From Chthonomonadales bacterium (lineage in GTDB: Bacteria; Armatimonadota; Chthonomonadetes; Chthonomonadales; CAJBBX01): 39,794 nucleotides of DNA. Below, piece after piece: positions 776 through 32,826 of this stretch. A model generated the notes under the pieces. It did no database searches. It saw only the letters and a list, made by a program, of their open reading frames with translations, and was not told where the DNA came from. Each line of letters begins with the position of its first letter. Position 1 is the first letter of the stretch. The stretch lies in NCBI GenBank assembly GCA_012517255.1, contig JAAYVH010000135.1, forward strand, positions 1-39,794. The letters are read 5' to 3'. Both the position numbers and the translations under genes were made by a program.

Positions 776-3700
776 GTGCGAGTGGCATGGGCTGCGGCGC
801 ATAGAAGGCGACGACCGCGCGGGGTTCGCCTTGTCTGCGAGGCAGTCGCCGCGTGCGTTTCGATCGTTCCGCTCGCCGTTGTCTGCTTGCTCGCCGGCGG
901 AGCCTTCGCTGCCCTGTGGCGCGTTTGGTCGCCTCGACTGGGTGATGCGGTAGCGGAGGAGGCGTCGCGCATTGTAGGTGCGCCCGTCTCCGTCGGGCGC
1001 CTGGATGTATCTCCATTCGCTATCGAGGTAAGAGACCTCACGCTCGGCGATCCCTCGGATCCGCGGGGGGCTCCCATGCTCCGCGTGGATCGGGCATCTG
1101 CCAGAATCCCCCGCGATGTGGTGTCCCGGCTGCAGTCAGGCTCTGTTCCACTTCTCGATCAGGTTGAGCTGGAGGGGGGCGGGGCGGTCATCGCCAGGGA
1201 TCGGTCCGGACGCTGGAACTTCGCGGCTTTGATCCGACCGGGCGCAGCCGCTCCCTCGCGTCCGTGGATTGGTACGCTTCGCGTGATGGGCATGCGCGCC
1301 AGGTATGTGGACGAGGCTATGCCGCGCAATGCGGATCGCCGCGACGCAACCGTAACCGTCAGCGGGTTGATTCGGGAGGGACGGGTTCTGCTGGATGATC
1401 CGACATCGGTGGCATGGTCGGGCGACGTGCTGCTGGCGGGCGCCTCTGAAGGAAGCGTCATCACCGCAGGAAGGTACGACTCGGGCCGGCGCAGCGTGAT
1501 CCTGTCGGTCTCCAGCCCCATGCTGCACTATCCCGAGTGGTGTGACCGGTTCCTCCCTCGCGGCTACGCTGTCCATCGCGCTTCGGTCGGCGGTCGGTTC
1601 GCCCTCGCATGGTCGCCTTCAGCGCGGGATCCGCTGGACTGGCAAGGTGAAGTTGACGTGTCCGAGGCATCCGTCACTACGCCCTGGCTGCGGGGAAGCG
1701 CGCTTGTGCGCAACGGCTCCGTAGCATTCGGAGACGCGTACGTCCAAGGTCGATGCGAGGTTGTCGTCGGCGGCACGTCAGCCGTCCTCACGGGCGGCCT
1801 GAGTGACTTCGCTCGTCCGCGCTATTCAGTGCGGCTCTCCACGCCAAACGCCCGGCTCGAGACCGTCCTCCGCGAGGTGGTCCCGGCGCAGTCGTACCGC
1901 AGCGCTCTGGACGGGCTGAGGGCGAGCGGACCGATGCAGGTGCGGCTGGATGGCTCGGGCACGCGAGCCGTCGTTACGGCAGAAACCAGGCTACAAGTCT
2001 CAGGCACGATGGCAGGCGGAGCCGTCGCGATATCGCCTGCCAGGGCGAGCATCTCGGTGGCGGGGCCATGGAATGATCTTCAGGTTCGCGCCGATACGCG
2101 CGGTTCGCGCCTCGCCGTGCACGGCGTGGATCTGCGCAACCTGCGCCTGGTCGGCCGTGTCGCCAAGGGACGCCTGCACGTGGCCGGCATGGGGGGCTTG
2201 GCGGATGGCAGGTGGAGCCTCAGAGGATCGGTTGGCGTCCAGGAACCCTACGGCTATCAGGGCTCACTGTCGATCCGGGGAGCGAACCTGGCAACCATCA
2301 TGGGACAGGCAGATCGTCTTGTGGAGGCCACAAGACGATCGAGCGACAACCGGGCTGGCCTGGACAGAGTGCGCGCATCGGGGTCCATCTCGGCTGATTT
2401 ACAGCTATATGGCAGCCAGCGAGAACCGGTGGCTCGGGGCAGCGGGATTGTACAGGTTTTAGCGCCAAAACTAGACAATATCGATCTCGACGAGATCGTT
2501 GCGGTTGGCCGATTCGGCGCTGGGACGCTGACTATGGACGCGTTGAGGGTATGCCGCGGCGGCGCGACTGCCAGGGCGCGCGGCGACGTCCACATTCCAG
2601 ACTGGACCGGCTCCATCGAAGCCGAGGCAAGCGACTGGCCCATTCCGGTAATGCTGGACTGGGCCGGTGCGCACCCGACTGTACCGGTCGGCGGAACTGT
2701 CTCGCTCCAGGATGTTAGGCTCGACGGTGATCTGAGGAGGCCGCACCTGCGCGGCACCGCGTTCGCTCGCGGTCTTCAGGTGGACAATCGGGACGTGGAC
2801 TACGCCGTCATGGCGCTGGAGGGTACGCCCGATGCCATCACGATGGACGGGGAGGCCATTCGCGTGCCGTCGGTACTCACGCTGAATGGGATGGTGAGGC
2901 GCCCGTTCACGGGAGCGCCGTGGATCTCGCTGATGGCTCATGCTCGCGACGTGGATCTCGCGGATGTGAGCGATGTAAGCGGCCTGAGGCAGCCGCTGTC
3001 GGGCCTTGCGGAAGCCGATGCCCTGCTCCACTCGCCTGTGACTGAGATCGGCAGCGGGCAGTTCTCGCTTGTCGCCGATCGTGTCTGGGCGGGCGAAATC
3101 ACCGTGGACAGCGTGCGGGCCTCGGGATCCATTCGTCGCAGCGACAGCGCTCTGGCCATGCGTGTCGACCAGGCGACTGCCAGAGTGGGCGGCGGGACGC
3201 TCACGGGCAGCGCCTTCGTCGAGGGGTCCGGCGCGTTCGAGGCCGACATCAGGGCCGATGCCGTTCCGTTCGATGCTGTCAGCAGCCTGACGAGCGGCTA
3301 TGCCGATCTGACAGGTTCGGCGGATTTCCGCGCTCACCTCTATGGCCATCGCGACGGCGAGAACCGCCTGCAAGCCTCCGGTGATCTGGCGCTTGCCACG
3401 CACCAGCTCACGGTCAACGAAGAGGATTTCGGGGACCTGACCGCCAGGCTGGCGCTGAACGGGGGCGTCCTCACGGGAGAGCGCTCCGCAAGCCCGCATC
3501 CCGCGCTGCGCTGGGGCGACGAAGGGAGCTACGTTTCGCTCGAGAAGCTGGAATACGATCTCGACACCCAACGCTTCAGCGCGCTTGTGCAGGCCGAAGG
3601 GGTTCCCGTAGCGGCGTTGCGGCGGGCCGTTGAACGAAGCCCGGCGGTTGTATCCGGAGGTCAGCAGCAAGCCGTGGCGAGAGCCCTGGCCGCCCTGACT

Positions 3701-30072: not shown

Positions 30073-30079
30073 GACTTTG

Positions 30080-30303
30080 CGCGATACCGATGCGGTGACC
30101 GCCGAGGTCTGGCGGTCATGGGGGAAGTCCGGTGCAAGTCCGGCGCAGTCCCGCTACGGTGTGTGTCTCCTGGAGGCACGAGCCCGAATGCCCAGCCGCA
30201 TCGCATCACGAAAGCCCTTCGCGAGAAAGGGTGTGATGCAGGCGGGCCGTCAGGAATGGCGGCATCCGGCGACCATCACACCATCCGCAAGGATGGTGTT
30301 TTT
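30080..30303 (+). ncRNA. Cobalamin riboswitch with transcription-terminating expression platform
   Basis: The aptamer core reads GGAAGTCCGGTGCAAGTCC followed by GGCGCAGTCCCGC (30122-30152), the conserved cobalamin-riboswitch centre. A B12-box-like GAGCCCGAATGCCCAGCC lies at 30180-30197; it deviates slightly from consensus. A 7-bp hairpin at 30097-30117 precedes the core. A later hairpin (30203-30239, GCATCAC paired with GTGATGC, inner stem CCCTT/AAGGG) fits the kissing-loop stem. The 3' strand of that hairpin overlaps 30230-30238, which can instead pair perfectly with 30274-30282 and so block the terminator. The logic is OFF with cobalamin, ON without. The downstream genes include two BtuF-like proteins, which supports B12 as the ligand. 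Confidence 0.9.
30278..30303 (+). terminator. Intrinsic terminator of the cobalamin riboswitch
   Basis: Nine-base-pair stem (30278-30286 with 30291-30299), GCAA tetraloop, then TTTTT at 30299-30303. Its left arm overlaps the right arm of the antiterminator (30274-30282), so the two cannot form together. Confidence 0.88.
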
Positions 30304-30371
30304 CGTTAGGCCGGTCCGCAAGCGACACTTGCCTCGCGACGGAGCAATAAGCCCAAAAGGAGAAGGTGTCC

Positions 30372-31112
30372 ATGCACACCGGCCGCACCGCCTTTACGCT
30401 CATTGAGCTCCTCGTCGTCATCGCGATCATCGCCATCCTGGCGGCGATCCTGTTCCCCGTCTTTGCCCAGGCGCGCGAGAAAGCGCGGCAGACGTCCTGC
30501 AGCTCCAACCTTAAGCAGCTCGGCCTTGCCACCCTCATGTATGCTCAGGACTACGACGAGACCTATCCGCTCTATCAGTACGATGACTGTCAGGGTTTCA
30601 CGTGCTATCAGTACTGGTTCGGTCTGCGCGTCGGCAACACGTGGGACAAGACGCGCGGTCTGCTCTACCCGTACATGAAGAACCACCAGATCCAGCGCTG
30701 CCCGAGCTTCAGCGCGGTTCCTCGCTTCGGCGACGGCAACGGCTATGGGTACAACTGGGGCTACCTTGGATCGGACTACTACCTTACGTTCAACTGGCCG
30801 CCCAAGAATCCCGCATCAGAGGCCGCCCTATCGGCGCCAGCCGACAAGGCTCTCTTTGCCGACGCAGGCTTCGTGAACGTGCCGTGGTTCGGAGGGTCCG
30901 GCGAGATCATGGAGACGCCGGGCATAGATCCGCCATCCATGTGGTGGGGGAATCCCACGGTGGAATTTCGGCATCTCGACAATGGGAAGATCATTGACAC
31001 GGCCAACTTCACGGTAACCCATAAGGGGCTCGCGAACTTCGTGTTCGCCGACGGCCACGTCAAGGCGCTGCGTCAGGGATCCGTGACCGACGCGATGTTC
31101 ACGAGGAACTGA
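30372..31112 (+). CDS. Prepilin-type protein with C-terminal H-X9-DG motif
   Basis: A 246-residue type IV pilin/pseudopilin-like protein. The N-terminus has the prepilin peptidase site [11 protein letters not shown] (cleavage after A7, Glu at +5), then a hydrophobic helix to about residue 31 and the REKARQ segment. A globular extracellular domain follows, rich in Tyr/Trp/Gly, with [20 protein letters not shown]. The C-terminus has His-X9-Asp-Gly ([12 protein letters not shown]). Such proteins are abundant in Armatimonadota and Planctomycetes and most have no known role. The ATG at 30372 has AAAAGGAG at 30355-30362. It is the first gene after a cobalamin riboswitch and is followed 2 bp later by a BtuF-like gene, which links it by context to B12 uptake. 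Confidence 0.88.
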
Positions 31113-31114
31113 CT

Positions 31115-31945
31115 GTGGTTACTGGTGGCCGCGTCTATTGCGACGCGCTCGGCGCGCCAGTGCACGTGCCCGATCGTCCTGCGCGTGTCGTGAGCTTGGT
31201 CTCGGGCGTTACCGAAGCCATATGCGCCATGGGCTGCGGCCACCGCATAGCCGGAGTCAGCGCGTATTGCCATCGGTATGTGCCCGATCTGCAGGCGCCG
31301 GTAGTCGGCGACTATCTGACGGTGGATCACGAGCGATTGGCCGACCTGAAGCCTGACCTGATGCTGCTGACCACCGGCGTGCAGCGCGCTCTGGCGAGAA
31401 AGCTGAGCGGCGCCGGCTACCCGGTGTACGTGGTGCCGTTGCCTTCCAGCATCCATGGCGTCCTCGAGAACGTGATGCTGGTCGGTGGGCTCCTCGGCGA
31501 GGTGGAGGCCGCCCGAAGGCTGGCGGATGCCTGGACGGAGTCGCTGCGCGCGATCCGATCATCTGCCGGCGACCGGCGCGTGCGTGTCTTTGCGGAGCTC
31601 TGGTTCGGCAAGCATGTTCGCGTTCCGGGTGGTCTGACGTTCATCAATGACATGATCGGCTTCGCCGGAGGCATCAATGTGTTTGGCGAGGCGGCTCAGG
31701 CCTATATGACGCTGGACCCTGTGGATGCTGCCGCGCGCTCTCCTGACGTGTGGCTGCTGTTCTCGGAGCCCGAATACCCGGTCGATGGTCGGGCGCTCAT
31801 GCGGGAGCGCGGCTGGGATCGGGCGATGCCCGGTCTGCGGCTTGTGGAGGCTGGCGTCGAGCCTCATCGGAACATGATCCATGACGGGCCGTCCATGGTG
31901 AGCGCCGTGCAGTGGCTCTCGGAGAGGATCGCCGAATGCGGCTGA
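31115..31945 (+). CDS. BtuF-like substrate-binding protein lacking a signal peptide
   Basis: A 276-residue protein of the periplasmic-binding-protein family that includes BtuF and siderophore-binding proteins. RVVSLVSGVTEAICAMGCGHRIAGVS at the N-terminus, LADLKPDLMLLTTG and the PDVWLLFSEPEYPV segment are recognisable. The start is GTG 31115, 2 bp after the pilin gene. There is no signal peptide: the protein begins directly with the first strand (VTGGRVYCDALG), unlike its downstream paralogue. It could be cytoplasmic, or need another export route. Cobalamin or a corrinoid as ligand is suggested by the riboswitch. Confidence 0.82.
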   Translation: MVTGGRVYCDALGAPVHVPDRPARVVSLVSGVTEAICAMGCGHRIAGVSAYCHRYVPDLQAPVVGDYLTVDHERLADLKPDLMLLTTGVQRALARKLSGAGYPVYVVPLPSSIHGVLENVMLVGGLLGEVEAARRLADAWTESLRAIRSSAGDRRVRVFAELWFGKHVRVPGGLTFINDMIGFAGGINVFGEAAQAYMTLDPVDAAARSPDVWLLFSEPEYPVDGRALMRERGWDRAMPGLRLVEAGVEPHRNMIHDGPSMVSAVQWLSERIAECG

Positions 31946-32826
31946 TAGCGAGTCTGCTCGTCGGCGTGCTGCTCGCGACAGCCCGGCCTGCCGACGGGCA
32001 GCCTCAGGCGCGGTCAAGAGCACCCATCGTTGTCACCGATGTGCGTGGCGTGTCTGTGACGCTTCGGGAGCCTCCGCGGCGCATTGTCTCGTTGGCTCCC
32101 GCCGTCACCGAAATCCTCTTCGCCATCGGCGCGGGTTCAAACGTTGTCGGCGTTACGGCGTTCTGCGATTACCCAAAGGCGGCGCGGAGGCTCCCCAGGG
32201 TGGGCGACCTGAACGTCAGCGCCGAAAAGGTGCTGGGGCTGAAGCCCGACCTTGTGATCGGCGACGTGGAGGCGAACCGCAAGTCCATCGCGCTGCTTGA
32301 GCGTCTTGCCCCTCTGAAAGGTCGTCTGTTCGTGGTCGCCGGCAAGGACTTCCGCGAGATCTTTGCGGCGGTCGAAAGCGTCGGTAGGGTCACGGGCCGC
32401 GCCGCCGAAGCCGCGCGATCGGTGGCGCGCATGAAGCGAACCCTGGCGCAGATCCGTGCCCAGGTGGCCCGCTCCGGGGCTCGTCCACGGACGGTGTTCG
32501 TGGTCCAGACGGAGCCTCTCTGGTTGGCGGGATCGGGCACGTTCATTGACGATCTGATCACGGCGGCCGGCGGCCAGAACCTGGGCCGGATGGCCGGCAG
32601 AGGCTACCGCTCGTTCAGTCTCGAACGTCTCATCGCGCTGAGCCCCGATGTTATCGTCTCGAGCGACGCGAGCCTGCGCAGTCTCCGGGGCAAGGCAGGA
32701 TGGAACGCGCTTGCTGCGGTCCGCGCGGGACGGGTGTACGTGCTCGGATACGATGCGGTGCGACCGGGTCCCCGGCTCGCAGAGGCTGTCGTGCAGCTCC
32801 ATCGCTGGCTTCACCCGCGGCCATAG
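31936..32826 (+). CDS. btuF: BtuF-like cobalamin ABC transporter substrate-binding protein
   Basis: A 296-residue exported binding protein. The signal peptide (residues 1-21, MRLIASLLVGVLLATARPADG) has no lipobox cysteine. Then come PRRIVSLAPAVTEILFAIGAG, VVGVTAFCDYP, VLGLKPDLVIGD and TFIDDLITAAGGQN, all typical of BtuF. ATG 31936 has GGAGAGG at 31921-31927 and overlaps the end of the upstream paralogue by 10 bp. The partner permease and ATPase (BtuC, BtuD) are not in this window. Cobalamin specificity rests on the riboswitch and family resemblance; iron-siderophore binding is the main alternative. Confidence 0.85.
   Translation: MRLIASLLVGVLLATARPADGQPQARSRAPIVVTDVRGVSVTLREPPRRIVSLAPAVTEILFAIGAGSNVVGVTAFCDYPKAARRLPRVGDLNVSAEKVLGLKPDLVIGDVEANRKSIALLERLAPLKGRLFVVAGKDFREIFAAVESVGRVTGRAAEAARSVARMKRTLAQIRAQVARSGARPRTVFVVQTEPLWLAGSGTFIDDLITAAGGQNLGRMAGRGYRSFSLERLIALSPDVIVSSDASLRSLRGKAGWNALAAVRAGRVYVLGYDAVRPGPRLAEAVVQLHRWLHPRP

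Follow-up and report, generated by a model that had tools for sequence, protein, structure and literature searches.

Vitamin B12 is too large for general porins, pseudopilins are normally parts of secretion pili, and competence pili draw DNA through a secretin. In the mutationally tested metE riboswitch of Priestia megaterium a kissing loop stabilises the P13 hairpin, and without ligand the 3' side of P13 pairs with the 5' side of the terminator (PMC10653944). One activating corrinoid riboswitch is known as well, in which the 3' side of P13 itself is the 5' side of the terminator (PMC10653944). BtuG, BtuH and DUF4465 of Bacteroides are surface B12-binding proteins, and some proteins of the Bacteroides B12 loci were first described as unknown domains before they were proven to bind B12 (PMC10404256, PMC8941943, PMC13398666).

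In the window, as the whole stretch of 39,794 nucleotides analysed here is called, the region 30076-30303 is with high probability a transcription-terminating OFF switch for cobalamin, and the pseudopilin encoded behind it most likely serves the acquisition of cobalamin as a part of the cell envelope. A sequence-only reading had recognized a cobalamin riboswitch from position 30080 onwards. By covariance-model search with RF00174 this identity could be confirmed, with the start of the aptamer match moved to 30076: the match at 30076-30214 on the forward strand (46.1 bits, E 1.4e-8) exceeds the gathering score of 31.5 and is the sole one in the 4.77-Mb genome, which like the relatives named below belongs to the Armatimonadota. 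We therefore regard 30076-30214 as a confirmed, genuine cobalamin riboswitch with predicted ligand binding. The elements of the switch are as follows.

30076-30214, forward strand: cobalamin riboswitch aptamer, short form without large peripheral domain (RF00174)
30149-30153, forward strand: L5, UCCCG, the half of the kissing loop that lies in the aptamer (read from the sequence)
30203-30239, forward strand: P13 hairpin with L13 at 30220-30226 (exact pairing, covariation)
30230-30282, forward strand: antiterminator, 30230-30238 with 30274-30282, apical hairpin between the arms
30278-30303, forward strand: intrinsic terminator with U-run 30299-30303 (pairing and independent pattern scan)

As elsewhere in the RF00174 family, core and B12 box are found above the gathering score, the 46 bits of the window being low compared to other loci of the phylum, which reach 126. 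At two loci with a homologous pseudopilin RF01689 (AdoCbl-II) is the best-scoring model. The folding of the whole riboswitch region is 3.0 sd better than that of dinucleotide shuffles. The lower stem of P13 (30203-30209/30233-30239) is an exact helix of 7 bp, as had been read before, but what was then called a kissing-loop stem is the lower part of P13, which continues above a 4-nt bulge in the upper stem 30214-30219/30227-30232. The kissing contact itself, left unnamed in that reading, can be recognized by eye between L5 UCCCG (30149-30153), in agreement with the consensus given for L5 (PMC10653944), and L13 CGCGA (30220-30224) with one C-C mismatch; an alternative register pairs UCCCGC with GCGAGA, also with one mismatch. 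Among 21 sequences 91.9% of the P13 cells are paired, slid registers score worse, and 6 of the 13 pairs exhibit changes on both sides, compared to a mean of 2.8 in shuffled data and with none of 500 shuffles as high.

Antiterminator (30230-30238/30274-30282) and terminator stem (30278-30286/30291-30299) are exact over 9 bp each, so that the three mutually exclusive helices of 7, 9 and 9 bp hold base for base. The U-run behind the terminator is present as well and overlaps the stem by one base, with which the stem ends and the run begins. A complementary run of at least 9 nt between the 3' arm of P13 and the next 51 nt occurs in 0.055% of mononucleotide shuffles. Taken alone, the antiterminator hairpin has an energy of −32.0 and P13 of −16.6 kcal/mol. 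For growing transcripts, calculated with ViennaRNA without ligand and without pseudoknot, the antiterminator is favoured over P13 at end 30283 (−95.9 vs. −94.8) and at end 30295 (−104.0 vs. −99.8), whereas at end 30303 P13 plus terminator (−107.4) beats the antiterminator (−104.2). The transcripts thus pass from the antiterminator, favoured for ends 30283 to about 30295, to P13 with terminator in the order expected for such a switch.

In the absence of cobalamin, the newly made 3' arm of P13 (30230-30238) would pair with 30274-30282 and block the terminator, so that the operon would be read. With cobalamin bound, the L5-L13 contact would keep P13 closed, 30278-30286 would be free and transcription would end at about 30303; we infer that termination depends on the ligand in this way. 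The proposed switch shares with metE of P. megaterium the L5-L13 kissing loop, a P13 with internal loop or bulge, the terminator, an antiterminator between the 3' arm of P13 and the 5' arm of the terminator with a structured region in between, and the greater stability of this antiterminator compared to P13. Because the layout is that published for metE and P13 covaries in the relatives, the predicted mechanism of the window switch is an ordinary one. Its logic having been proven by mutation in metE, the three-way mechanism of the sequence-only reading appears right and already known. Unlike the metE riboswitch, which controls methionine synthase, the window switch has a short aptamer without large peripheral domain and, as read from the sequence, precedes a pseudopilin operon. 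What is unusual is the controlled gene rather than the switch, and the identity of this gene is the more interesting point that had been passed over.

30358-30362, forward strand: Shine-Dalgarno sequence AGGAG, 9 nt before ATG (read from the sequence)
30372-31112, forward strand: pseudopilin of 246 aa with a methylation motif at the N-terminus, the start of DUF1559 and a DGH motif close to the C-terminus
31115-31945, forward strand: BtuF-like substrate-binding protein 1 (PF01497, 80.7 bits)
31930-32826, forward strand: BtuF-like substrate-binding protein 2 (PF01497, 97.8 bits)

In the pseudopilin, the prepilin cleavage motif (PF07963, 26.7 bits), DUF1559 (PF07596, 55.1 bits) and the H-X9-DG motif are all present, with TIGR02532 and TIGR04294 (H-X9-DG) matching above cut-off. 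The AlphaFold2 model (mean pLDDT 80) exhibits a long N-terminal helix from 10 to 60; in a Foldseek comparison against the PDB only pilin helices were returned, and the C-terminal domain gave no match suggesting B12 binding. Some 50 genes of the genome, about 1%, belong to DUF1559. The gene for BtuF-like protein 1 begins 2 nt past the stop of the pseudopilin. As a separate observation, an obvious signal peptide is missing from this protein but not from BtuF-like protein 2, which in turn scores 86.3 bits with the NCBIfam BtuF model, under the cut-off of 234. Candidate parts for ABC-type B12 import are the two PF01497 proteins of the operon and a single FecCD permease encoded at another site of the genome.

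The combination of riboswitch and pseudopilin is found across the phylum. Among the window and its relatives, a pseudopilin starts at most 500 nt downstream in 46 of 75 cobalamin riboswitch loci. For a search of 61 genomes the common N-terminal part was removed from the pseudopilin. Of the 42 other genomes that gave a match, 38 had the best one no more than 1 kb behind a cobalamin riboswitch; among the four exceptions, two still have weak matches to the cobalamin riboswitch family upstream. In a phylum sample of 151 genomes the linkage was found, among the matches listed, in 69 of 79 judged genomes, a number that leaves out 30 genomes for which a pseudopilin was listed. In the tree, the 46 linked proteins all group in a single clade (SH-aLRT 99), which holds just five of the 67 sequences not known as linked. 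These five (L111, L112, L116, L136 and L158) all proved to have a cobalamin-family riboswitch upstream, as the tree predicted, compared to none of six control pseudopilins from outside the clade. The clade is marked by the motif G[YF][GA][YF]N, present in 46/46 linked and 2/62 unlinked proteins. In a second tree that included the other pseudopilins of the window genome, its own paralogue L240, for which no known riboswitch was found, lies inside the B12 clade. At 13 of the 46 loci, genes for BtuF, BtuC or BtuD or cob genes lie behind the pseudopilin, and many linked pseudopilins stand alone with no transport genes behind.

The expression platform varies. A terminator of the form CCATCC...GGATGGTTTT recurs with much the same spacing in the majority of relatives of the family. 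Only for the window and for four relatives is the energy of the antiterminator duplex clearly beyond that of dinucleotide shuffles (p about 0.01-0.03); elsewhere the signal is weaker. G001 (locus L101), of the same genus, and G005 (L094) are without terminator and have the Shine-Dalgarno sequence paired instead, so the expression platform changed between close relatives; the terminator has apparently been swapped for Shine-Dalgarno sequestration within one genus. Between terminator and Shine-Dalgarno sequence we also noted a conserved CTCGYGA motif, often CTCGTGAAGCC, at 30333-30339 of the window and at the corresponding position in some 12 relatives; it stands upstream of 13/46 linked and 2/36 unlinked pseudopilins.

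Further observations concern neighbouring proteins. Ten genomes of the order (L062, L073, L083, L066, L064, L071, L070, L065, L081 and L082) encode a small BFD-like [2Fe-2S] protein, some 75 aa long, right after their B12-linked pseudopilin, and in another B12 riboswitch locus, L099, such a protein comes after a PEP-CTERM surface protein. At L099, L056, L054 and L092 the place behind the cobalamin riboswitch is taken by a large protein of the PEP-CTERM or a related type. A resemblance of the PEP-CTERM proteins to DUF4465, seen by eye, was discarded, as Pfam gave the sorting motif only.

TPP riboswitches were intended as a negative control and were searched in 31 genomes of the order, resulting in 30 loci (L192-L221). 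The next gene is a pseudopilin in 27 of them (26 by pattern, one by eye); in the other three it resembles thiE and thiC by eye. The search thus came out as a second positive, and a pseudopilin precedes the salvage genes for two vitamins. The TPP-linked proteins form a separate second clade (26/26, SH-aLRT 100), each of the two vitamins having its own pseudopilin clade, and thiamin pyrophosphokinase follows the TPP-linked pseudopilin in all nine loci tested. The window genome itself contains such a locus (L198: TPP riboswitch at 1501-1609, a pseudopilin gene starting near 1750 and the gene for thiamin pyrophosphokinase at 2499-3107). Among its pseudopilin genes other than the B12-linked one, this TPP-linked one is the only one with a known Rfam cis-regulatory riboswitch upstream.

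The window genome (G000) gave no match to the TonB plug domain PF07715, and the same is true for 37 of 69 genomes with a linked pseudopilin, this genome included. A TonB receptor is encoded behind a cobalamin riboswitch in 15 further genomes of the phylum. The window genome gave six matches to secretins and, above cut-off, eight to T2SSE (pilus ATPases). With respect to riboswitch-linked genes, two genomes have both BtuB and pseudopilin, 13 BtuB only, 72 pseudopilin only and 22 neither (Fisher p 4e-6, uncorrected for relatedness). We set this mutual exclusion aside as strong evidence, since it is partly trivial given that most genomes carry one riboswitch, and keep it as a hint.

With regard to the switch, two other modes of control were considered. 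Cobalamin could turn the operon on, as in the one activating corrinoid riboswitch described (PMC10653944). In the window, however, the layout is a repressing one because the 3' side of P13 pairs with the 5' arm of the terminator and is not that arm itself, which makes activation highly improbable. Control that is mainly translational, with the terminator as a secondary element, finds a precedent in the paired Shine-Dalgarno sequences of G001 and G005; in the window the terminator is strong but the pairing round AGGAG weak, and we judge this mode very unlikely, if a little less so than activation. Repression by transcription termination thus remains our preferred mode.

For the pseudopilin, an ordinary cobalamin riboswitch could lie beside such a gene by chance, considering the roughly 50 DUF1559 genes of the genome. 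This is next to inconceivable: genes that make up about 1% of the total stand close behind 46 of 75 riboswitches, the linked proteins are one clade with a blind test of 5/5 against 0/6, and the phylum-wide linkage refutes it. A role outside the uptake route, in which the pseudopilin would help a type II secretion or pilus system with the export or assembly of a different surface protein that captures cobalamin, would fit the usual service of pseudopilins in secretion pili and the PEP-CTERM proteins at some linked loci. Most loci, however, have no exported candidate after the pseudopilin, and a separate clade for each vitamin would be needless for a general export role; we consider it unlikely, though worth keeping in mind. 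Our results rather suggest that the vitamin-specific pseudopilins may help to capture or import vitamins, and that the riboswitch-linked ones point to an undescribed vitamin uptake route. More specifically, the cobalamin and thiamin pseudopilins might bind the vitamin and a pilus-secretin machine carry it across the outer membrane, replacing TonB receptors such as BtuB. Such a route is consistent with the absence of TonB receptors; we put it forward tentatively, giving it somewhat less than an even chance.

In the literature searched, which is mostly free of subscription papers, a cobalamin riboswitch and a pseudopilin occur together in no paper, one unrelated match aside; no paper joins riboswitches with DUF1559 and none joins cobalamin riboswitches with Armatimonadetes. 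Vitamin uptake is described for no pseudopilin in the papers searched. With two vitamin riboswitch classes tied to two pseudopilin clades, the very large DUF1559/H-X9-DG family gains a specific, testable candidate function. If true, this would explain the supply of B12 in outer-membraned bacteria without TonB receptors. The linkage is also present in a genome bin of Chthonomonas calidirosea (L158), a species with named strains, and is therefore testable in culture.

Compared to the known systems, the window protein resembles BtuG, BtuH and DUF4465 of Bacteroides as an envelope protein encoded in a B12 transport locus. Those proteins are partners of the TonB-dependent BtuB, whereas here a pseudopilin is encoded and no TonB plug domain was detected in the genome. 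With the pseudopilins of competence and type II secretion it shares the N-terminal methylation motif and the long helix; unlike them, it is of the DUF1559/H-X9-DG type, which has no known cargo.
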